Part shown: piece after piece, positions 2,026 to 19,638 of the stretch
Numbering within the stretch: the stretch's first letter is position 1
Layout: each line of letters starts with the position of its first letter
Origin: a virus
DNA: 20,820 nucleotides
Virus record (IMG/VR): IMGVR_UViG_3300017782_000291
Location: 1-20,820 of that record
Direction: 5' to 3' (one strand)
The notes under the pieces: generated by a model
The model's input: only the letters and a program-made list of their open reading frames with translations
Database searches by the model: none
What the model was told of the DNA's origin: nothing
Program-made: the position numbers and the translations under genes

Positions 2026-2574
2026 TTGGCAGAGCAAACCCTAGGACGTTCGCGGGATACCGCGCAGTTAGACCCTTTCGCTGCTGCGCCACCCGGTCAT
2101 TCCCTAACAGAAGATAATAGCAAGTGGCCTTGGGGCAAACCGCCTAAGTACGCCGACCCGGACGAAGCGTTTGAACGGTCTGTTGAAAGTATTACAAACG
2201 AAAAGAACAAGCAGGAACTATTCAAGCTATTGATGGTTGGTGTGTCTGTTGAGGTGCTTGTAGAGGGGATGCTCTTTCAAGGGTTTCGCGATGGTTACTA
2301 CACACCCGATGTTGGGCTGCTGTTGAAAGGCCCATTAGCAATTATCATCTCTGACATGGCAGAGGAAGAAAACATCCCCTATCGCCTGTTTGAAAACGAT
2401 GACACCATGACAGAGGATGAGATGGACGACGAGACCTTCTTCCGCATGATGCAGCAAAACAACCCGAGGATGTTTGAGTATGTTCGCGAGAATGTCAATG
2501 CCGCAATTCGTGCTGGCAACACCCCGCAAGAGCCTAACTTTATGAACATGTCTCGTGAAGAGGGAGAAGAGTAA
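2026..2574 (+). CDS. virion-cassette protein of unknown function, TTG start
   Basis: A 182-aa acidic protein. The best start is TTG at 2026, preceded by a GGAG element about eight bases upstream and one base after the previous stop; the next in-frame ATG codons lie well inside conserved-looking sequence. Residues 45-115 contain a Leu/Val-rich region (LFKLLMVGVSVEVLVEGMLF) that could be an amphipathic or buried helix. Residues 120-145 are a dense Asp/Glu/Met tract, and the tail ends EEGEE. The TAA overlaps the following ATG (TAATG), indicating coupled translation with the 618-aa gene. No family is recognised; a structural chaperone or a minor internal virion protein are both possible. Confidence 0.75.
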   Translation: MAEQTLGRSRDTAQLDPFAAAPPGHSLTEDNSKWPWGKPPKYADPDEAFERSVESITNEKNKQELFKLLMVGVSVEVLVEGMLFQGFRDGYYTPDVGLLLKGPLAIIISDMAEEENIPYRLFENDDTMTEDEMDDETFFRMMQQNNPRMFEYVRENVNAAIRAGNTPQEPNFMNMSREEGEE

Positions 2575-4430
2575 TGGGTATCGGTATCGCTTTTGCTACA
2601 GGCTTCCTGAAGGGACATACTGATGTTGCTAAAGAAAAGGCTGCTGAAGCACTCAAGAAACAAGAACTAGAAGCAGAACAGCGGGGTAAGTTTGCAGATA
2701 ACTTCATAGACTACATGAAGAGTGACGACCCCCAGCAGAATGTAGCTGAGTTTTTGAGAGATAAGGCAGGTTACAGCCCGTTGGATTTGTCGTATCTAGG
2801 TAATACCATGAATGATATTGAAAATACCATAGCATTTGGTAGTTTTAAGTTACAAAAGCCTGAGAAGTGGGATGAAGATATCAGAGACGATAATATGCTT
2901 CGTGCGGGCGGCACATGGCTACGCACCGTACAAGGGCTATTCACCAATGAAGAATCTGGTGCTGCGCTAATTAAAGAGTTGGAAAGCAATCCGACCGCTT
3001 TAAGAGTCTTCAATGATAAGTTTAAGATGTACTCAGACTATTATGTCATGGGTATGCGAAAGGAAAACACCAACTCAGCTACAGGTGTTACTAGTGCGTA
3101 TCTCCCACCTAGCGTAGCGTTCGGACCTTTGTTTGAAGCCGTGGGTAATCTTAGACAACCCACACCCGACAACACTAATCAGATTACTATCCAAGACAAC
3201 CCCGATATCGAGAACCCCGCGAACTCAGTTGTGTTCAAGTTCCGCGACGAAAGTGGCAAACAAAGTTTAGAGGCTCGTGAGTTCGATGAGGGTGTGTACA
3301 CTAGTCTACAAGCCCTAGCTATAAACTTGGGCTACAAGGGCAGTCAGAATGTGTCGCCAGTGCAGCAGATGGTAGATAGCTATGATGATGTCATGTTCGC
3401 AAACAATGCTGATGAGGCTTTCAAAACCTTGTTTATTGCTGCCGAACTAGAACGGGCAGGGGCTGGGGCTTTCAACATGACAGGCGGTGGTAGTGAAGCC
3501 ACACGAGCCAACATAGGCAACTTATTAGAAGAGAAGTTTCAAGGTGACCGCTTCTTGATGGCGCAAGCTATGGCTCCCTTGATGGTCTTGGATGAAGACC
3601 AGTTCAACAAGAGCAGCCGCCTTACCTACTCCATGCAACCCGCTGCTACCTACTTCAAGAAATACCTGAACGTAGATGTAGCGCAAGTTCGCGAACAAAC
3701 CGGGGAAACACAGGAAACCCTGAGATTGTTGGAACAGCTAAAAGGCAAGCTAGGTAAGGAATCAACCCCTACTGGTTTCGTAGCTGCGTTGAAAAGCGTA
3801 TTCGGCGGGGCGTTCGGTGAAGGCGGTCAGGTTAGCCAGTTGCTTGGTGACAACACCGACGGCGTTAGCAGCGATGAGGTCATGCAACGTGCAAAGGACA
3901 TGGGCTTTATCAGCACCACGGTCATCAAAGACCTATCTGAAATGGAAGCCTTGAAGCTAACCCTAGCTGCGAAGATGGCACGGGCTATTGACCCGTCAGG
4001 CCGTTTGTCTAACCAAGACTTTGAAGTTCAGCTACAACGCTTGGGTCAGTCAGGGTTTTTCACTTCAAAGGTACAGGCTCAATCAAAACTCGATACCGTA
4101 ATCGAAGATTTTACAGCCCGTTCGAAACGCCTGACAGTATTGGACGAGATTGCAAACGCCCCAACATTCGGTGCGAGGGAAGCTCGTCTACTCAAGGCGA
4201 ACATGGCAGTTCAGAGTGCCTTAGATGCTAGGAGAGCGGGTTCATATACTACGTCAACCCAGCGAGGTTCGCAAAAAGAGCCAGCAGCAGTCCCGGCAGA
4301 ACCCCTAACCCTAGACTCTGACATGGGTTTCTATACCGACGGAAAAGGTAACTACTTTAAGGACGAGCAGGGGCAATCACCTGTATCTACAGAAGAGTTT
4401 AACGCTAAGTTCAACGAGGTATATACATAG
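2574..4430 (+). CDS. large virion/ejection-type protein, 618 aa
   Basis: A 618-aa protein with a Gly/Ala-rich N-terminus (MGIGIAFATGFLKG), then a Lys/Glu/Ala/Gln-rich helical segment (residues 18-45), then a mixed alpha-helical body. I see no protease, lysozyme, transglycosylase or nucleotide-binding motif. The C-terminus (about residues 560-618) changes to a Pro/Ser/Thr linker followed by a compact segment containing FYTDGKGNYFKDEQG, which reads like a small separate domain. It overlaps its upstream neighbour as TAATG and its downstream neighbour by one base (TAGTG), so three genes form a coupled unit. Size and order resemble the internal core/ejection proteins of podoviruses; the assignment rests on context rather than homology. 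Confidence 0.8.
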   Translation: MGIGIAFATGFLKGHTDVAKEKAAEALKKQELEAEQRGKFADNFIDYMKSDDPQQNVAEFLRDKAGYSPLDLSYLGNTMNDIENTIAFGSFKLQKPEKWDEDIRDDNMLRAGGTWLRTVQGLFTNEESGAALIKELESNPTALRVFNDKFKMYSDYYVMGMRKENTNSATGVTSAYLPPSVAFGPLFEAVGNLRQPTPDNTNQITIQDNPDIENPANSVVFKFRDESGKQSLEAREFDEGVYTSLQALAINLGYKGSQNVSPVQQMVDSYDDVMFANNADEAFKTLFIAAELERAGAGAFNMTGGGSEATRANIGNLLEEKFQGDRFLMAQAMAPLMVLDEDQFNKSSRLTYSMQPAATYFKKYLNVDVAQVREQTGETQETLRLLEQLKGKLGKESTPTGFVAALKSVFGGAFGEGGQVSQLLGDNTDGVSSDEVMQRAKDMGFISTTVIKDLSEMEALKLTLAAKMARAIDPSGRLSNQDFEVQLQRLGQSGFFTSKVQAQSKLDTVIEDFTARSKRLTVLDEIANAPTFGAREARLLKANMAVQSALDARRAGSYTTSTQRGSQKEPAAVPAEPLTLDSDMGFYTDGKGNYFKDEQGQSPVSTEEFNAKFNEVYT

Positions 4431-7400
4431 TGGCTGAGCAGCAAATCCCACAGGCTTTCGAAGAAGCCACCCAAGACGAAGTTCAAATCGGAAGACAAGA
4501 CCCAGTTCTTGGGGTTGGCTCTGAGATTGTAAAGGATGAAACCATTCCTGAAGCGGCTCGTGAAGACGTGGCTGTACAGCAGGAAGGCGTGGACTTCCGG
4601 GAAGTATTGGCAGGAAACGTCTCTAAGGTTGGTTCTATGAACATAACCCCGAAGGCGTTAGAAGCTGCTAAGAAGAACCCATCTTTGATGATGCGGATTA
4701 AGTCTGAACATGCACGGGCAGGTCAAGCCACTCCAGAAGACCAGCCGATTATACCTATGCTTCGCAATGGCGAGTTCGTTCCGACACCTGAGATAATCTC
4801 TGACCCTACAACTATGGACAAGACAGAGAAGCTTGTCATGGCTCGTAAAGCTGTCGATGACCTCATGGTTCAGCAGGGAATTGAAAACCCGATAGTTCGT
4901 CAGATATTTGTCGACGACTTTGCTACAGGGGATTTCTACGAGTCATTATCAACTCGGTTGGCACAGGCCGGGCAGTTCATACCTGAAGGTCTTGCAAGTC
5001 TTGCTATTCTCCCGTATCACGCAACAGGGGCTTTAATAGATTCAAGAAACAAAGGAACCGACTGGTCTGCAGAGTGGGGTTCGCGGCAAAACGATATACA
5101 GCAAGCATTTCGAACCACTAGAAATGCCATAGATATGGTTATTCCTAGACCGACTATGGCTATGGCCTTCAATGACCACGTTGAAGAAGAGTTAAACAAA
5201 AAGCTTGAGGCTGGGACAATAACACCAGACCAGTACAAGCAGACCATGTTTATCACTGATGAAGAGGGTAAAGAAGTTCGCAGGGATTTCTTCAATGATG
5301 AACAGGCACAATCTCTGATAGACCTAGGCTTTGAAGAACTACCAACCTTAGAAAAGTTTGGCGTTATCTTTGTGGAAACTGCTGCTCTCATGGGGGGGCC
5401 GGGACAAGCCAAAGGCATCTTGGCTATGCAGAAGTTCAACAAACTTGTCAAGCGGTATGATGAAACCACAGACATCGGCAAAGCTATCGCTGGCAAAACC
5501 GACCCGTTTGAAGTTGTCAACATCATGGAAAGCATGGGGGTCAAGACCCGCATCAATCGCAACGCCCTGTCTATCGGTGTTATGCAACAGCGCACAGACC
5601 GTGCTTTAGATACCCTTGCTGACCAGATTGATGAGGCGGGTACAAAGCTAGATGCGTTACGTATAAGCGGCGTACCTAAAAACAGCACCCAATATAAGGT
5701 GGCCCAAGGCGAGTATCAAAACCTAACCAGCCGTATGCTTCGTGCTAAGTACACAGCAAAGGTATATCCGTACGTCAAAGAAACTACGCAGGATGCCCTA
5801 GTGATTTCGGCGGGACAGCTAACTGCGCGGGAATGGCTTCCTGAATTTACTGGTCTTAGTCCTGAAACCTCAGAGGTGATTGGGGCAATCAGCATGGTTG
5901 CTGGGGGTCACCAGCTTTTACAGTCTCTTGGTGGAACGCTTATCAAAATGACAGCCAGCCCTCGCGGAGGTGCGCCTCGTGTGTTCGCATCCTCTATGGA
6001 CTTCATGGCTAACGTAGCCACCTTGGGTTCGTTGAGATTGGCAGGTGTAAAGCTAACAGATAGTACCATCGAGAATTTCGAACTAGCTACGGGACGTAAG
6101 CTGTCTGGCGATGAAATAAAAGGCATCAACGCTACTATCAAGATGATGAACAGCTTGAACGACACCGAGCGTGAAGTTGTAATGGGTGCTATCGACGAGT
6201 ACGTGAATTTGCGTGATAGTATCGTCAAGGCATTTCCAGAGGGTGAGCAAGCAGAAGCTATGGAACTGTTTAACCTGTCCTTCTCAAATGCCTCGGGTTT
6301 GAACTTCATGTCCGCAGTAACTTCTGTAAACGCCAACAAGCTAGATGTTCGCGAACTGGGTAAGATGGAACTAAGTTCTATCTATAAACAGATGAACGCT
6401 GCAAACAAACAGGTTGAAGTGACCGAAGCTGCTTTGGCTAATCTGGAGAACATGGTGCAACGCTCTGGTATTGAAAACCCAGAAGTTGTTACTGAATTTA
6501 TCGCATCTAACAGAGCAGCACTCAAGTCCTTCCAAAATGCACAGATTAAAACAGCAGAAGAGCAGCTTGCAATACTGGGCGATATACGCAAGACAGCACT
6601 TGCTGACCCTACAATAGACCTACCTGAAAACTTCTTGCTAGACCTAACTGAAGCAGATTCTGCCCTGCGAACACAGCTAGGCCAAACCCTAGACAAACGC
6701 ACCCAAGTAAAAGAGGTTATGACTGACCTGTTCACAGGGTTGTCTACTCGTCTGGAAAGTATGCGTGGTTATCGCGGCAGGGGTAGGGAATACTATAGAA
6801 ATTTAGGCAGAACTACAGAAGATGTGATAGACACCCAGATTGATTCTATCTGGACTATGGGACATGCTGCTTATGATGGCGTTCGCAAAGCGTCGCAAGG
6901 TGAGCCGGGAATCGACCTAACTGATGCCGTAGACTACATGGTAAATCAGGCAGCCCCGGGAACAGCCTTCAAACGCTTCTTCAGTCCAGAGGGTCAGTTC
7001 TTCAGTGGTCGTCTGGGTAGGCAGAACATGATTGTATTTAATGACATGGTCGAACGTGCCTTACCAAACCTAGATGAACTACGGGCTGAATTGAAGACTG
7101 GCGGTGTCGACCAAGCCCTTGTTGACAGCATGACAAACATCGAACTGGCTATGGAACTGAAGCGCATCCAGCCAGACTTCAATCCGTTCTCTCAGGCTAA
7201 TGCCTACGAGGTGGATGTCCTGAAACGTGCATTTACTGATTACGCCTACAAGGTTGATAATGGTGCGCTAGCCGATACCTACAGAAACTACGGTCAAACT
7301 TTAGATAACGCTATCCGGCAGCAACAGCCAGAAACTTTCAAGCTATTGCAGGAGGCGCGTACAACGTACCGCTCTGAAGTTGGTGACCGCTTACGTCCCG

Positions 7401-8809
7401 GGGGTTTTTTGTACAAGGTTGACATGTCTCGTCAGGGTGGGCGAATTGTAACTGCAACTGGTGACGATATGTTCCAGTATGCTTATAAAGGTGTGAACCC
7501 GTTAAACCTATTCAAAGGCGTTACGAACAACATCAGCAAAGCCCTGAAAGGTAACTTCGATGCAGAAGCAGACCTAACAGCAGAAGTCGGTGCTATCGTA
7601 ACCCAGTTTGCTGACACGGTTGATGGGAAGCGGGTGTTCGATTTGTCAACCGATGCTGGTCGTGCCAAGTTCGCGGCATTACAAAACGCAGTTGGCGAGA
7701 AGGCGTTTGCAGACTGGGCAGATAACCAGATAAAAGTTTTCGAACGTGTTAATAGCGTCGAGGCTGTTAAGCAAGGCGGTTACAAGCTAGACAACCTAGC
7801 TGACATGGACTCTGTACATAGCCTGATGCAAGTGCCAGTTCGAAATGCAGACGGCACTGTGGAGATGAAACCACTTGTAAACCTATCTGAGTTGTACTCT
7901 GACCACAGAAACTTAGATGAGTTTGTCAGGGGTAGCGAAAAGGCACGTAAAGAATACGCATCGTACATATCAGATTTTAATAACGTTGACAGCAAACTTC
8001 GCACAAACATCCAGAACAACATTCGTATTCAGGATGACGCACTAGACCAACTAAAACCATTCACAGGCGGCTTGAACGCAGAGGCATTTTATCAAAGATA
8101 CATTATTGATAGCAGCCCTGCAGAGATAGAAAACCTAAGAACCCTGTTCGTAAACTCACAGCGCAAGGCGGGTAAGTCTGCAGACGAAGCTGCTGATATG
8201 TTTGATTCAGCAGTAGGTCGCCTAGTTGCAAAAGGTTTCCAAAGCAGGGGTGGTCTAGCCCCTATCCCAGAGGCCGTACTCCCAGCAACACGCAGGGATG
8301 TTCCTGTAGCGCGGCAGTTTACAACCCCAGAGAACATGCTGGATGATATACGCGACCACCGCGAGAAGCTGGTAAATGTTCTGGGTGATGAACACGTAGA
8401 TTACTTAGAAAACATAACCAAGTTCCTTGCACGTTCGCGGGACATGAGTGTTCGCTTAGATGGCATGACATCTGGATATTCCTTGAATGAGGGACTCAGC
8501 CGCACGTACAACATCTCTCGCGGAATGGTTAGCCCTCTCTATGTTACCTCTGAGTTCGCGGTTCGTCTTATGGCCCGTTCTAATATAGACGTATTACAGT
8601 TAGCTGCTGGAAACCGTGACGCTGCAGACATCATACATAAGATGTTCAAGACACCTGAACTGGTCACCCAGCCCAACATGAAAACCCTCAATGCTGCTCT
8701 TACAGAGTTCGCATTTACAGAGATGGCACGTAACGACCTGTTCGCACCCGAACTAAACGAAATGTTCTTACTACCCGAGAAGGAAGAAGCAAATGATGAA
8801 CAAGAATAA
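4430..8809 (+). CDS. giant internal virion (DNA ejection) protein, 1459 aa
   Basis: This is the largest gene in the window, read from a GTG at 4430 that overlaps the previous TAG. The 1459-aa product is mostly helical, with long Gln/Glu/Leu/Ala-rich stretches (e.g. residues 640-760). A few hydrophobic segments look amphipathic or weakly membrane-active: near residues 180-200 (LASLAILPYHATGAL), near 306-325 (FGVIFVETAALMGG), and near 480-505. T7 gp16 and similar ejection proteins are of comparable size and also insert into membranes, but gp16 has an N-terminal lytic transglycosylase that I cannot identify here. Oddities are a G7 run at 5392-5398 and a GGGTTTT heptamer near 7400, both spanned by an intact frame. 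It overlaps the 93-aa gene by 17 bases. Confidence 0.85.
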   Translation: MAEQQIPQAFEEATQDEVQIGRQDPVLGVGSEIVKDETIPEAAREDVAVQQEGVDFREVLAGNVSKVGSMNITPKALEAAKKNPSLMMRIKSEHARAGQATPEDQPIIPMLRNGEFVPTPEIISDPTTMDKTEKLVMARKAVDDLMVQQGIENPIVRQIFVDDFATGDFYESLSTRLAQAGQFIPEGLASLAILPYHATGALIDSRNKGTDWSAEWGSRQNDIQQAFRTTRNAIDMVIPRPTMAMAFNDHVEEELNKKLEAGTITPDQYKQTMFITDEEGKEVRRDFFNDEQAQSLIDLGFEELPTLEKFGVIFVETAALMGGPGQAKGILAMQKFNKLVKRYDETTDIGKAIAGKTDPFEVVNIMESMGVKTRINRNALSIGVMQQRTDRALDTLADQIDEAGTKLDALRISGVPKNSTQYKVAQGEYQNLTSRMLRAKYTAKVYPYVKETTQDALVISAGQLTAREWLPEFTGLSPETSEVIGAISMVAGGHQLLQSLGGTLIKMTASPRGGAPRVFASSMDFMANVATLGSLRLAGVKLTDSTIENFELATGRKLSGDEIKGINATIKMMNSLNDTEREVVMGAIDEYVNLRDSIVKAFPEGEQAEAMELFNLSFSNASGLNFMSAVTSVNANKLDVRELGKMELSSIYKQMNAANKQVEVTEAALANLENMVQRSGIENPEVVTEFIASNRAALKSFQNAQIKTAEEQLAILGDIRKTALADPTIDLPENFLLDLTEADSALRTQLGQTLDKRTQVKEVMTDLFTGLSTRLESMRGYRGRGREYYRNLGRTTEDVIDTQIDSIWTMGHAAYDGVRKASQGEPGIDLTDAVDYMVNQAAPGTAFKRFFSPEGQFFSGRLGRQNMIVFNDMVERALPNLDELRAELKTGGVDQALVDSMTNIELAMELKRIQPDFNPFSQANAYEVDVLKRAFTDYAYKVDNGALADTYRNYGQTLDNAIRQQQPETFKLLQEARTTYRSEVGDRLRPGGFLYKVDMSRQGGRIVTATGDDMFQYAYKGVNPLNLFKGVTNNISKALKGNFDAEADLTAEVGAIVTQFADTVDGKRVFDLSTDAGRAKFAALQNAVGEKAFADWADNQIKVFERVNSVEAVKQGGYKLDNLADMDSVHSLMQVPVRNADGTVEMKPLVNLSELYSDHRNLDEFVRGSEKARKEYASYISDFNNVDSKLRTNIQNNIRIQDDALDQLKPFTGGLNAEAFYQRYIIDSSPAEIENLRTLFVNSQRKAGKSADEAADMFDSAVGRLVAKGFQSRGGLAPIPEAVLPATRRDVPVARQFTTPENMLDDIRDHREKLVNVLGDEHVDYLENITKFLARSRDMSVRLDGMTSGYSLNEGLSRTYNISRGMVSPLYVTSEFAVRLMARSNIDVLQLAAGNRDAADIIHKMFKTPELVTQPNMKTLNAALTEFAFTEMARNDLFAPELNEMFLLPEKEEANDEQE

Positions 8810-15479: not shown

Positions 15480-17015
15480 TTATACCTCAAACACAGCTTC
15501 TAAGTCAAGCCAGTTTTTTCCCATTTTTAATTCTATTCCTACGGGCATGGTATACTCCTTGTTATATCTGCGTTTTGTCTCCTGTGATAAACACAGCATT
15601 GCCGTAGACATAACCTCAATACACTTATCTTCTTCACCGGGATATACATCAATCACGATAGAGTCGTGTACTGTGTTGCAGATAACAGACTTCATGTCCT
15701 GCATATCACTATGCAGTTTGACAAGAGCCATTGGCAATAGGTCGGCAGTGGCAAAACCTTGAACAGGGTAGTTACAGATAGCTGTTCTATTTGTAGCTGT
15801 ACCCCACTCAGTCCACTTGGCATCGGGAAAGGCGTACTGTCTGCCAGATGGTAGGGTAATCTCTTTCTTGGTTACCGCATCCTTCTGCAAAACTTTATGC
15901 CAATCTGTAACGCCACGATACTTATCTTTAAACGCACGGTAGTAACGTTGCTGGTCTTCCGTCCCGCTAACGCCCCCATACAAAGGTTTGAAGGTGTGGG
16001 CTTTCGCTTCCTGTCTAGTACAACCAATCACGCTGGCAGTATAGCTATGCACATCTGTACCAGCCTCAACATCATTAAGCACCATCTCATCACTGGCAAG
16101 GTAGCCAGCAACCCTAAATTCTAGCTGGCTGTAGTCACCCTCTAAGATAGAGCCGCCATCGAATCTACTCTCTACTGCCTTACGAATGGCAAACGTAGAA
16201 CCACGCGGCATGTTTTGAAAGTTGGGATTGCGGCTGGATAACCTGCCCGTTGCTGTAACACACTGCATGAACTCGGTGTGGATGAAGCCGTTGTCATCCA
16301 TGTTGTTCTCCATGCCTTCAACAAACGAGCGTAGATAGGTTCGCAGGGCAGAGTATCTAATATATGACTGTGCAAACTCACGGGCATCACCTCGCAAGGA
16401 TAGTGACATATCCTCTAGGGTTTCTTTATCTGTCTTGAAGCCCCCTGCTGCAACGTCAAACGCATCACGGGGAACCATCTTAAACCCAGCAACCTCGCCC
16501 GTGCTGGTATAGACAACGCCCTTACCATTACACGTCTTACAGATACGAACAGCTTTACCGACTGAGCCATCCTTACGCAAGGGATTGTACCTACCCTTAC
16601 CGTTACAGTCCGAACACTGAGAGCCTACAGTTTTGTATACCACGTCAGTTTCACGCACGACGTATCCCTTGAACTCAGCACGAGACATCCGCTTACGCTG
16701 TTTAGGTTTACGTGTTGCACCCCGCAACTCATGTCCCAGATTAAATATCACTGCCCATGTCTTCTTGTCAGCAACCTTGCAAGAGTACATCAGCATAGAC
16801 CTGTCGTCTGGACTATCGAGGTTGACGGGGGTATCACCCATCGCGTTCGCGGCTAGTTCGTTTAGTCTGCGTTCTAGCTGAAACAATTCTTGTTCGTATT
16901 CCTCACGAATCTCAGCTAAAGTTGTCTTGTTTATCTTGATGCCGTTCTGTTCTATGTGAGCCAGAACGTTCGTCATTTCAAGCGACAGACGAAGTGTCGG
17001 TATTAGATTTGTCAT
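15480..17015 (-). CDS. family A DNA polymerase (polymerase subunit, zinc-motif thumb insertion)
   Basis: A 511-aa replicative polymerase lacking its own exonuclease domain. Motif A is D294YSQLE; motif B is R334-x3-K338-x3-F342-x3-Y346-G; motif C is V449HD451. TGRLSSRNPNFQNMP (256-270) is the conserved template/primer-binding block. F342 corresponds to E. coli Pol I F762 (T7 Y526). Between the NLDSP helix (65-69) and the GGFKTDKETLEDM segment (191-203) lies an insertion with two DnaJ-like CXXCXGXG motifs (C134/C137 and C159/C162), absent from T7 gp5, whose thioredoxin-binding insert lies upstream of the equivalent helix. The ATG at 17015 has a GAGGAA site and overlaps the exonuclease gene by 38 bases; a TTG at 17042 is less likely. 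Leftmost and rightmost polymerase blocks are complete. Confidence 0.95.
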   Translation of the reverse strand: MTNLIPTLRLSLEMTNVLAHIEQNGIKINKTTLAEIREEYEQELFQLERRLNELAANAMGDTPVNLDSPDDRSMLMYSCKVADKKTWAVIFNLGHELRGATRKPKQRKRMSRAEFKGYVVRETDVVYKTVGSQCSDCNGKGRYNPLRKDGSVGKAVRICKTCNGKGVVYTSTGEVAGFKMVPRDAFDVAAGGFKTDKETLEDMSLSLRGDAREFAQSYIRYSALRTYLRSFVEGMENNMDDNGFIHTEFMQCVTATGRLSSRNPNFQNMPRGSTFAIRKAVESRFDGGSILEGDYSQLEFRVAGYLASDEMVLNDVEAGTDVHSYTASVIGCTRQEAKAHTFKPLYGGVSGTEDQQRYYRAFKDKYRGVTDWHKVLQKDAVTKKEITLPSGRQYAFPDAKWTEWGTATNRTAICNYPVQGFATADLLPMALVKLHSDMQDMKSVICNTVHDSIVIDVYPGEEDKCIEVMSTAMLCLSQETKRRYNKEYTMPVGIELKMGKNWLDLEAVFEV

Positions 17016-17559
17016 CAAACAGTTCCTCAAATGTTGTGCCAAAGGCTTTGAGTTGGGCTAGTGCTACATCTTCTGTAGCGATTACATCGGCAATGCCGTA
17101 CTCTACTATAGTGTCCCACGGTATGTCAAAGAATGTGTAACCTTCCTTGAAGTACGGCGTGATAAGGTCTTTCTCTTTTTGCACTCCACCATACTTTCCT
17201 GCAACAGCAGCAAGGTTGAGAGGCCAACGCCTCGCCTTGGAAAGAATGTATTCCGCAACCATTGTATCATAAATATGTCCCTCGTATTTGAAATTGCACT
17301 CGCGTATCCAAGATAGGTCGAACTTGATGTTGTGACCTACAACTACATCAGCTAGGTTTAAGGCATCTTGAAAGATGTTGAAGCCATCCTTGCTAGGTTG
17401 CTGGGTACTGTGGTCGAAGCAGAGATAGTGAACATTGTCATTACCCTTCCACTTGTACCCGACAGATACCAGTGTGTTGCCAAAGTAAGGCAGGGGTGTA
17501 GATGAGCCATTAGGCTTCTCCTTGTGGGTTGTCTCCACGTCAAACGTCAGGACTCTCAT
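16978..17559 (-). CDS. DnaQ-like DEDDy 3'-5' exonuclease (split polymerase proofreading subunit)
   Basis: A 193-aa exonuclease corresponding to the proofreading domain normally fused to family A polymerases. Exo I is D7-x-E9 (FDVET), Exo II is D81 in GHNIKFDLSW, and Exo III is Y154-x3-D158 (YGIAD), giving the DEDDy class; D98 in YDTMVAEY is also conserved in family. The tail after residue 180 is acidic/Ser-Thr-rich and may contact the polymerase. The ATG at 17559 overlaps the helicase stop as TGATG, with GGAG 11 bases upstream. It overlaps the polymerase start by 38 bases, consistent with one ancestral polymerase gene now made as two chains, presumably assembled as a complex. Confidence 0.92.
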   Translation of the reverse strand: MRVLTFDVETTHKEKPNGSSTPLPYFGNTLVSVGYKWKGNDNVHYLCFDHSTQQPSKDGFNIFQDALNLADVVVGHNIKFDLSWIRECNFKYEGHIYDTMVAEYILSKARRWPLNLAAVAGKYGGVQKEKDLITPYFKEGYTFFDIPWDTIVEYGIADVIATEDVALAQLKAFGTTFEELFDDKSNTDTSSVA

Positions 17560-18797
17560 CAATAATATACTCCCGTGTGAACATCAATGTGGCTGGTAAA
17601 CATACCGTGCCACCCGTTTAGTTTGTTCTTAGAGATACAGATATGTCGTGCTGTATTCTCTTCCTCAGATGTGCCAGTCTTGCCAATCCCGATGATTACG
17701 TCAGCCTCACCAGCCTTACCAGTTCGCGAACCATCTAGCATCGAGTAGTCAATAAACTGGCGGTCATGTGCTTCGAAGCTAGCCTGTGACACAGACCATA
17801 CCAGAAGCTTGTTACGCTTGGCAATCTCACGAGCAGTGACATATATCTCTTTCAGCTTCTCATCCCCACGGTTGAACTCGCCACCAATCCTGAACTTGTC
17901 AAGCTGGTCACAGAACATAACGTCCGGCTCGTTTAGCTGGGCATACTCGTTCAGTTCTTCCATAGATGTACCTACCGAATCCATAACAATTAAGTACGGT
18001 GCTACCTCTTCTTCGAATCGCTGTTGCAACGTATGTCGCTCTTCAAGCATTTGTTGTCGGGTACGTTCAAAAAAGGACTGAATGATACGCAACTTAATCT
18101 TTTCGGCTGGCTCTTCGTTAGCCCAGTATACTACCTTTTGTTTGTGCCGTATGTAGTTCGCGGCAAGAAACGCACAGAAGGTTGTTTTGCCTACCTCTGG
18201 ACGGGCAAAGATAATACCGAGGTTGCCCCTGTCCATGCCCGACAAGTTCTCTGACAGCAAGTCCCAACCAAAAGGGAAGTCTGGGTCACCTGTCTCTTCT
18301 TCTACTAGCTGTGTAAAATCTTTATCCATCTCGCTATATGTCGTCTTATCTGTCATCCGCCCATCTTCAACCATGTCGATGAGCGTCTTGAGTTCGCCAA
18401 AGTGTTCCGATTCGCCAGTGAAGATAGCAATCGCCTTCTCACCAATCTGTCTAGCCCTGTCTCGAACCCAGAAATTCTTCACCACATCCAGTTCGAGGGA
18501 CATCTCAGTGGACACATTCCCCGATAGGTTGTCTATTATACTATGTATCTCAGCTATTGCGCTAGACGGCATGGCTGGATTGCGGTCACTGACTAATGCC
18601 GACAACTGATTCGGCTCTATGTCTATGCCGTACTCTCTGTGTCCGTAGCTAATCACGTCAAAGATTGTAGCATCACGTCCCGCGAACATGTCCTTACTAA
18701 CAATGTTCTTTACTTTGTTGTAGAAATCATGATGGAGCATAAAGCCCAGCACCTGATGTTCAAGTGTATTTGGAGAGAACTCTTTCTCTTGTTGCAT
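17559..18797 (-). CDS. replicative DNA helicase, DnaB/T7 gp4 superfamily
   Basis: A 412-aa helicase. Residues 1-105 form a DnaB-like helical N-terminal region (TLEHQVLGFML), and a linker reaches to about 175. The RecA-type motor has Walker A at about 199-206 (RPEVGKTT), the H1a glutamate in YWANEEP, Walker B at 293-300 (VMFCDQLD), and a sensor-like WSVSQAS. FGWDLLSENLSGMDRGNL is the typical lead-in to Walker A. In T7 the helicase is fused to its primase; here it is a separate gene immediately after the primase. The ATG at 18797 lies 38 bases inside the primase gene, with AAGGA about 11 bases upstream. It presumably forms a hexamer on the lagging strand. Confidence 0.92.
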   Translation of the reverse strand: MQQEKEFSPNTLEHQVLGFMLHHDFYNKVKNIVSKDMFAGRDATIFDVISYGHREYGIDIEPNQLSALVSDRNPAMPSSAIAEIHSIIDNLSGNVSTEMSLELDVVKNFWVRDRARQIGEKAIAIFTGESEHFGELKTLIDMVEDGRMTDKTTYSEMDKDFTQLVEEETGDPDFPFGWDLLSENLSGMDRGNLGIIFARPEVGKTTFCAFLAANYIRHKQKVVYWANEEPAEKIKLRIIQSFFERTRQQMLEERHTLQQRFEEEVAPYLIVMDSVGTSMEELNEYAQLNEPDVMFCDQLDKFRIGGEFNRGDEKLKEIYVTAREIAKRNKLLVWSVSQASFEAHDRQFIDYSMLDGSRTGKAGEADVIIGIGKTGTSEEENTARHICISKNKLNGWHGMFTSHIDVHTGVYY

Positions 18798-19560
18798 TAT
18801 CCATGTCCTTCAAGTCTTGATTCAAAATCATTAAGTTAGTTGGCACAATGCCTTGTAATTTTCTTACAATATCTAGGGCCTTTTGGGTAGCATCCTTATC
18901 AAGGGCTACAAACACCCGCTCGTACTTTCGCAAAGTAGCTATGTGTGTGTCAAGTAGGTTTGTTCCGAGCAGGGCTACCCCCGAAAAAACATCTGATACA
19001 CAGCAAGCACTAGCACAGTCTTCCACAATAACAGCCACACGTCTGCTACCGCAAACGAAAGGATTGCCTGACTTTCCATATCTCCACCATTTAGGCTTCT
19101 CACCCGTAAGAGTTCGACCTGCGGCATCGACAACCTTACGCCCGTCAGTAATCATGTACACAATGCGGTTACGTTGAAAGTCGAACCGCAAGTCTACACG
19201 ACCATCGAGGTAGGCATCGTAGGCATTGACCCGCTTGAGGTAGGCAACTGATTCTGGACTGCGGGATATCGGAACGAACGTGCTGGGAATCTCGAAAGCA
19301 GCACTACCCACCGTTGGAGGAACAGAAGATTTCTTGTTTGCTTTCAGTAACATAGGGTGTGTAGTTACATCCTTAGTTAAACGAAAGCCTGTCCGTCCCG
19401 AAGCAGAACAGTCAGCATGGAAGCAGTGAAATAGGCGTTGCCCATTCTGTTCTCCCACGCTAAACGTGTTCTTCTTACCGCACATAGGACAATCCATACG
19501 CAACCGACCATTAGGTTGCAGTGGTAAGTCCATCACAAAGTCTGTTATCCAGTTAGCCAT
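18760..19560 (-). CDS. DNA primase (zinc finger plus Toprim), first gene of the replication operon
   Basis: A 266-aa primase. The N-terminal zinc motif is C24-x2-C27 (DCPMCGK) with C46 and C51 (HCFHADCS), as in T7 gp4 and DnaG. The Toprim part has VIVEDCASA (glutamate motif) and VALDKDA (DxD motif), with a conserved-looking basic/aromatic stretch (PKWWRYGKSGNPF) between them. At 266 aa it matches only the primase half of T7 gp4. I place the start at the ATG at 19560 (MANWITDF), not the longer in-frame reading from 19620, because a strong leftward promoter occupies 19567-19595 and would lie inside the longer form. The inferred transcript start is at or next to this ATG, so the mRNA may be leaderless; an AGG six bases upstream is the only possible ribosome site. 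Confidence 0.92.
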   Translation of the reverse strand: MANWITDFVMDLPLQPNGRLRMDCPMCGKKNTFSVGEQNGQRLFHCFHADCSASGRTGFRLTKDVTTHPMLLKANKKSSVPPTVGSAAFEIPSTFVPISRSPESVAYLKRVNAYDAYLDGRVDLRFDFQRNRIVYMITDGRKVVDAAGRTLTGEKPKWWRYGKSGNPFVCGSRRVAVIVEDCASACCVSDVFSGVALLGTNLLDTHIATLRKYERVFVALDKDATQKALDIVRKLQGIVPTNLMILNQDLKDMDNATRERVLSKYT

Positions 19561-19566
19561 GACATA

Positions 19567-19595
19567 CCTATACGACAAACTAAAAACACTGTCAA
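19567..19595 (-). promoter_or_regulatory. sigma70-like leftward promoter of the replication operon
   Basis: On the minus strand a perfect -35 TTGACA (19595-19590) is followed by a 17-base spacer and TATAGG (19572-19567) as -10. The spacing is ideal and the boxes are the same as those of the promoter at 20331-20359. Transcription should start near 19560, at the primase ATG. This is the only strong promoter I see for the 10.5-kb leftward operon. Confidence 0.75.
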
Positions 19596-19614
19596 CCTGA
19601 TTTTTTTTGTTGAC
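19591..19614. repeat. inverted repeat GTCAAC-N12-GTTGAC linking two divergent -35 boxes
   Basis: GTCAAC at 19591-19596 and GTTGAC at 19609-19614 are exact inverses around a 12-base, T-rich centre containing eight consecutive T residues. Each arm contains most of the -35 element of one of the two divergent promoters. It may simply reflect two consensus -35 boxes back to back, or it may be an operator through which one regulator controls both directions. Confidence 0.6.
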
Positions 19615-19638
19615 CGACAAACTTATCCATGCTATTAG
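19610..19638 (+). promoter_or_regulatory. sigma70-like rightward early promoter
   Basis: TTGACC (19610-19615), a 17-base spacer and TATTAG (19633-19638) read rightward, giving a predicted start near 19645 and a leader of about 57 bases to the ATG at 19702. Another possible -10, TATAAT at 19693-19698, is too close to the ATG to serve that gene with a normal leader. This promoter should drive the 63-aa, RHH and 82-aa genes as far as the terminator at 20291-20326. Confidence 0.6.

Follow-up and report, generated by a model that had tools for sequence, protein, structure and literature searches.

In the ocean, HMO-2011-type phages are reported to dominate and to be widely distributed (passages of PMC9038755), and their DNA polymerase is used to identify them. 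The hallmark of this polymerase, in passages of PMC9038755 and PMC6918029, is a pair of CXXCXGXG motifs in a 'partial DnaJ domain', and this two-motif module serves as a criterion for HMO-2011-type polymerases (passages of PMC8528129 and PMC9038755). The passages of the HMO-2011-type literature searched give no function for the module. The motif pair is thus an already published hallmark and is not itself new. A long thumb insert is likewise present in another phage family A polymerase, T7 gp5, where it binds thioredoxin and occupies residues that we take to be 258-333. Pol theta likewise has an enlarged thumb loop, insertion loop 1, which is described as a longer version of the equivalent loop that touches DNA in Taq and Pol I (passages of PMC9841435). 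Loop 1 strengthens DNA binding and is linked to processivity (passages of PMC9841435 and PMC5042397), and its deletion raised the Kd from 29 to 138 nM (PMC9841435). In the open-licence literature searched, the nearest case of a split family A polymerase is that of the OM43 phages MEP401 and MEP402, also marine, in which the enzyme is encoded by two ORFs (passages of PMC10580990).

The polymerase of the window and its relatives

The window analysed here is the whole of a 20.8 kb viral record. Its replication genes are the following.

15480..17015, minus strand: family A DNA polymerase without an exonuclease domain of its own (P0001; 511 aa, ATG start; from PF00476, the structure model and structural neighbours)
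16978..17562, minus strand: separate 3'-5' exonuclease ORF (PF01612), with a 38 nt overlap with the polymerase start (ORF list, Pfam, PHROG)
17013..17028, minus strand: likely ribosome-binding site GAGGA (17028-17024) and polymerase ATG (17015-17013), inside the exonuclease gene (from the sequence)
17559..18797, minus strand: DnaB-like helicase (Pfam, PHROG, phage-record matches)
18760..19620, minus strand: DNA primase (Toprim; Pfam, PHROG)

P0001 is a family A DNA polymerase, as its PF00476 match (E 4.5e-49) scores 167.8 bits against a Pfam cut-off of 34.3 and its predicted fold is Pol I-like. The longest polymerase ORF begins with a TTG at 17042; the ATG at 17015, which follows a GAGGA box, gives the 511-residue P0001, and the residue numbering of the original prediction matches this ATG and not the TTG. 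AlphaFold2 models of P0001 (pLDDT 86.8) and of a fused relative (87.5) are both confident, with predicted strands flanking the motifs. Bst, Taq, Pol theta and T7 polymerases were the structural neighbours of the P0001 model among solved structures, with about 380 of its 511 residues aligned. The Z score of the model was 26.9 with Pol theta, 26.7 with Bst (2hvh; 383 residues, rmsd 2.4) and 23.8 with T7 (1tk0; 381 residues, rmsd 3.0). No separate structural match to the zinc insert was present in the best 50 Foldseek rows per library when the whole model was the query.

Among isolates, the polymerase matched pelagiphage HTVC033P best (47.5%). HMO-2011-type polymerases (HMO-2011 gp12, HTVC033P gp22, CRP-1, CRP-2, CRP-3 and others) have the zinc module at an identical position and with identical motif spacing, at 37-48% identity over the polymerase part, and gp12 of the HMO-2011 record NC_021864 is annotated with a Pfam note for a partial DnaJ domain. 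The 95-residue stretch bearing the motifs matched 12 of 50,697 phage records, all HMO-2011-type and representing 11 phages (HMO-2011 twice), and the 11 top records of the helicase were these same phages. Similarly, the ribonucleotide reductase of the window shares 70.4% identity with its HMO-2011 counterpart, and the primase-helicase-polymerase gene order is the one found in HMO-2011-type phages. P0001 thus carries the two-motif partial DnaJ module of the type. In HMO-2011-type polymerases this module lies between the exonuclease and polymerase domains within a single polypeptide (8 isolates and 240 listed loci of three families are fused), whereas the exonuclease of the window is a separate, overlapping ORF, and we therefore filed the window polymerase as a split relative and not as a typical member.

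The primase and helicase genes overlap at 18760-18797 and the helicase and exonuclease genes at 17559-17562 (minus strand), the replication genes forming one tightly overlapped run. Elsewhere in the window, the plus strand encodes two large proteins (618 and 1459 aa; 2574-8809) that gave no tblastn match in the 50,697 phage records and no PHROG, and no capsid, portal or terminase gene was identified. The window possibly joins a known, HMO-2011-type replication module to an undescribed structural module.

Conservation and nature of the zinc motifs

The polymerase contains the following elements of the zinc module.

16593..16616, minus strand: first CXXCXGXG motif, CSDCNGKG, residues 134-141 (sequence and alignment)
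16518..16541, minus strand: second CXXCXGXG motif, CKTCNGKG, residues 159-166 (sequence and alignment)
16491..16637, minus strand: zinc hairpin on a stalk of two predicted strands (127-133 and 167-175; AlphaFold2 model)

The two motif starts are 25 residues apart in P0001, as had been noticed from the sequence with coordinates right to one base. When the residues of P0001 were shuffled 200,000 times, 230 shuffles contained at least one CXXCXGXG and none contained two. Five scans of viral contigs yielded at least 80, at least 80, at least 80, 36 and at least 80 loci, which are samples of best matches. The conservation alignment comprised 358 HMO-2011-type rows, the window and 8 isolates among them; left out of it were ten distant matches (L250-L255 and L288-L291), one locus without a match (L287), one that was the window again (L083) and, by count, two short rows below the coverage limit. 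Among these best matches, C134, C137 and G139 are kept in 355/355 rows reaching them and C159, C162 and G166 in 356/356. The original prediction depended on the cysteines being conserved in homologues, and among the matches listed they are so without exception. Since no shuffle gave two motifs and the cysteines are invariant in homologues, the two-motif pattern is not due to chance. In the same alignment, G141 is present in 348 of 355 rows but G164 in just 234 of 356, hence the second motif is, across the HMO-2011-type family, strictly CXXCXXXG.

The residues between the cysteines differ among clades, while the cysteines are constant. Positions invariant at the level of at least 99% in a non-redundant set of 83 rows include G139, G141, G150, G166, A176, G177, G192, F193 and T195. 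The spacing of 25 is found in all complete rows except one; the exception is Roseobacter phage CRP-738, whose longer hairpin has motif starts 37 residues apart. A further 16 contig loci, in several of which the ORF runs off the contig end, comprised seven with two C..C.G motifs, one with a single motif and eight with none. CXXCXGXG was absent from six isolates fetched as distant family A polymerases (L250-L255). Six polA-like matches from the plasmid collection (H77-H82, from Salmonella, Citrobacter, Klebsiella and Enterobacter) begin at P0001 residue 153, inside the zinc stretch.

The central domain of DnaJ has four CXXCXGXG motifs and two zinc centres. The best match of a profile of 65 modules among solved structures was the Cys-rich domain of E. 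coli DnaJ (1exk, 3.4e-5), on its second and third motifs, which we take to be zinc centre II and which likewise have the form CXXCXGXG-hairpin-CXXCXGXG; anti-TRAP (0.006) and lambda-type Q (0.012-0.015) came next. Pfam DnaJ_CXXCXGXG matches all 65 modules at E values up to 0.5. With PF00684, however, the module scores 25.6 bits and the whole of P0001 20.9, below the gathering cut-off of 32.7; the module has two motifs and not four, and no J-domain family was among the Pfam matches of P0001. A true DnaJ domain was rejected on these grounds. The term 'DnaJ-like' in the original prediction holds for the resemblance of the motifs and no further. A pair of CXXCXGXG-like motifs is likewise found in lambda-type antiterminator Q, another phage protein associated with nucleic acid, and PHROG Q-like families match P0001 at about residues 130-171 (16503-16628, minus strand; 1.2e-4 and 0.0057), although the remainder of Q is unrelated and the E-values (PHROG 1.2e-4, PDB profile 0.012-0.015) are marginal. 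Judged from its sequence, the module belongs to a type of two-motif CXXCXGXG hairpin that has been used repeatedly in phage proteins, any descent from DnaJ being conjectural. In HMO-2011-type polymerases it is a constant feature that defines the lineage, and not a DnaJ domain, and its four invariant cysteines probably bind zinc, with one probable site. A published parallel is phage Loki gp45, which has been read both as an incomplete DnaJ and as a lambda Q match (passages of PMC5313236). For the lambda Q zinc finger, which is inserted in a phage DNA-associated protein, a role in DNA recognition has been suggested (passages of PMC9371919); the passages of PMC11654794 and PMC7824862 concern other proteins. 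'DnaJ' labels on two-motif phage proteins such as Loki gp45 may, perhaps often, mark members of a wider Q-like class.

The separate exonuclease gene

An in-frame stop lies 13-36 residues upstream of the matched polymerase start in the window and in 77 of the 80 best window-like loci, the other three being at a contig edge. The exonuclease is in another frame, and its stop falls 20 nt past the start of the PTL stretch in 79/79 loci with this marker, window included. GAGGA precedes the polymerase ATG in every one of these loci, at a distance of 8 nt in 76 of them and of 5 nt in three. The exonuclease stop is TGA in every one of them, formed by the T of a polymerase-frame CTT (69 loci) or TTT (10 loci) codon and the following GA. 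The polymerase codon that makes this stop ends in T in 79/79 loci, whereas at the other positions of these genes the share of codons ending in T is 18.8% for Leu and 44.5% for Phe; the loci are related and not independent, and the change between CTT and TTT nonetheless keeps the T. All three exonuclease motif patterns are kept in 61 of the 64 complete exonuclease ORFs, and the separate exonuclease therefore looks active. The ORFs of L068, L074 and L076 do not have the first two patterns and are possibly degenerate proofreaders or pattern misses.

Exonuclease and polymerase are fused in 80/80 HMO-2011-like, 80/80 HTVC033P-like and 80/80 CRP-603-like best-matching loci, in 24/24 assessable CRP-3-like loci (seven more are at a contig edge) and in 8/8 isolates examined. 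Loci L288-L291, scored as split in the CRP-3 group by count, are 27% matches over 231 query residues and were left out for this reason; the distant isolates ICP2 and L253 (doubtful), scored as split by script, were also left out. In the tree, the 17 split rows form one clade (SH-aLRT 100), so that one fission is enough. The HTVC033P-like polymerases are its sister (SH-aLRT 93), a place which we weigh less than the unity of the split clade, as the outgroup was not one clade and there were long-branch warnings.

The split would be unreal if it were due to a sequencing error, or if a programmed +1 frameshift produced a fused exonuclease-polymerase protein; the frame relation is constant in 79/79 loci, hence a single shift would fuse the two. 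However, the identical overlap in the window and 77 other contigs, that is, in all assessable window-like loci among the best matches, excludes sequencing error, which was rejected as the cause, and the conserved GAGGA, ATG and TGA point to termination and re-initiation. An unreal split is accordingly very improbable in our estimate. As the exonuclease stop lies inside the polymerase gene, and the polymerase ATG with its ribosome-binding site inside the exonuclease gene, translation of the two is probably coupled. The proofreading exonuclease would have split off once, into an upstream gene, in the clade of the window, and the exonuclease and polymerase proteins probably act together. The titles, abstract starts and passages of the open-licence literature searched describe no split exonuclease-polymerase of this kind. 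The polymerases of MEP401 and MEP402 differ in that the break falls within the polymerase domain and a small ORF separates the two parts, and they are without the unusual domain structure of the HMO-2011 type (passages of PMC10580990). The separate, overlapping exonuclease gene is likely the new part of the present locus.

Position and possible role of the thumb hairpin

The position of the module is defined by the following features.

16809..16823, minus strand: NLDSP at residues 65-69, which corresponds to NLSST of Pol I (from 579; profile alignment)
16431..16775, minus strand: insert in the thumb at about residues 81-195, occupying the counterpart of the E. coli Pol I 595-608 loop (profile alignment and motif distances)
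16680..16712, minus strand: basic stretch RKPKQRKRMSR, residues 102-112 (not family-wide)

A profile-to-Klenow alignment (E 2e-44, 384 columns) set P0001 residues about 81-195 opposite Pol I 595-608. The distance from N-x-x-S to TGR is 191 residues in P0001, as compared to 87 in Pol I and 92 in T7 gp5, whose NPSS was measured at 335. This alignment gap and these distances place the insert of about 100 residues within the thumb, after the N-x-x-S helix and with a zinc motif, whereas the insert of T7 lies before that helix. Thus, P0001 does not have the T7-type arrangement, and the proposal of a thumb insertion on the side of the helix opposite to that of T7 was borne out. A global profile alignment to T7 gp5 put the T7 insert over the zinc insert; it was uninformative on position, and the motif distances were used instead. 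In the AlphaFold2 model, residues 131-180 have block pLDDT values of 84-93, and predicted strands 127-133 and 167-175 frame the motifs. The thumb-loop placement refines the literature's 'between exonuclease and polymerase' and gives the module a testable role. From the wording of PMC9841435, we infer that Pol theta loop 1 and the zinc insert are at the same place; loop 1 differs in having about 30 residues and in being disordered, with zinc not mentioned in the passages of that paper, and the likeness meant here is one of position.

The insert would thus present, as a loop at the thumb tip, a CXXCXGXG hairpin on a predicted two-stranded stalk, with one probable zinc site. Our preferred reading, to which we give a probability of about 0.45 and which is therefore tentative, is that this hairpin rigidly grips the primer-template duplex behind the active site, and that the exonuclease split off once and is translated in coupling with the polymerase. 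With such a grip the enzyme would hold DNA without a thioredoxin-type partner. A DNA grip is the simplest reading because the hairpin is presumably stiffened by zinc, mostly basic and at the position of a DNA-touching loop. Averaged over each of the five groups, the hairpin has a positive net charge (+3.4 to +6.4), which drops to 0 in some HMO-2011-like relatives. The stretch RKPKQRKRMSR, pointed out earlier as a very basic flank, is indeed present in P0001 but is not conserved across the family. Residues 100-130 have a mean net charge of +7.8 in the split clade, +6.9 in CRP-3-like and +5.4 in HTVC033P-like polymerases, and of only +2.0 in CRP-603-like and +0.6 in HMO-2011-like ones; the flank was rejected as a core feature for these low values. 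The missing flank in HMO-2011-like relatives and the hairpin charge of 0 in some of them count against a purely electrostatic grip. Our open-licence literature search found no paper on deletions at the Klenow thumb tip.

The invariant cysteines fit a structural or a protein-docking role equally well. The main rival to the grip is that the hairpin is a docking knob for a replisome member (helicase, primase or SSB-like) or a host factor, the partner giving processivity as thioredoxin does for T7 gp5. The partner-binding insert of T7 is on the same thumb, one helix away (by the bounds assumed above), and residues that vary by clade between constant cysteines are expected if partners co-vary; the partner is still hypothetical, however, and we hold this reading to be possible but doubtful. 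The module might instead have a structural role only, in which zinc staples and stabilises the enlarged thumb loop and no dedicated contact is made. The cysteines and a few glycines do make up most of the invariant part, but an insert of about 100 residues is kept family-wide with G150, A176, G177, G192, F193 and T195 invariant outside the motifs, and a mere staple seems improbable.

Docking of the separate exonuclease, one option of the original prediction, would suit the clade of the window, where exonuclease and polymerase are separate, but the module is also present in all 240 listed fused exonuclease-polymerase loci of three families. Since fused relatives carry it too, the module did not arise for the split; such a dock was rejected as the main reading of its origin and is highly unlikely as its purpose. 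The observation behind that prediction was correct and well placed, while its DnaJ name and its dock idea are weak. A DnaJ-like role in bringing the DnaK chaperone of the host to the replisome of the phage is the most far-fetched reading considered, the E. coli DnaJ domain being the best solved-structure match (1exk, 3.4e-5) and DnaJ having a role in lambda replication (passages of PMC9038755), but only two of the four motifs being present, lambda Q and anti-TRAP matching as well, and no J domain having been detected in P0001.

Going beyond the preferred reading of a grip on DNA, a zinc-dependent thumb clamp might confer partner-free processivity and, in one uncultured marine clade, might have let the exonuclease become a separate, co-translated subunit. 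This combination we regard as unlikely; if true, the enzyme would be a natural two-subunit family A replicase. PMC9038755 took polymerases of more than 540 aa into its tree and accepted matches covering at least 80% (passages of that paper), and the split clade, with P0001 at 511 aa, may be overlooked by current surveys.
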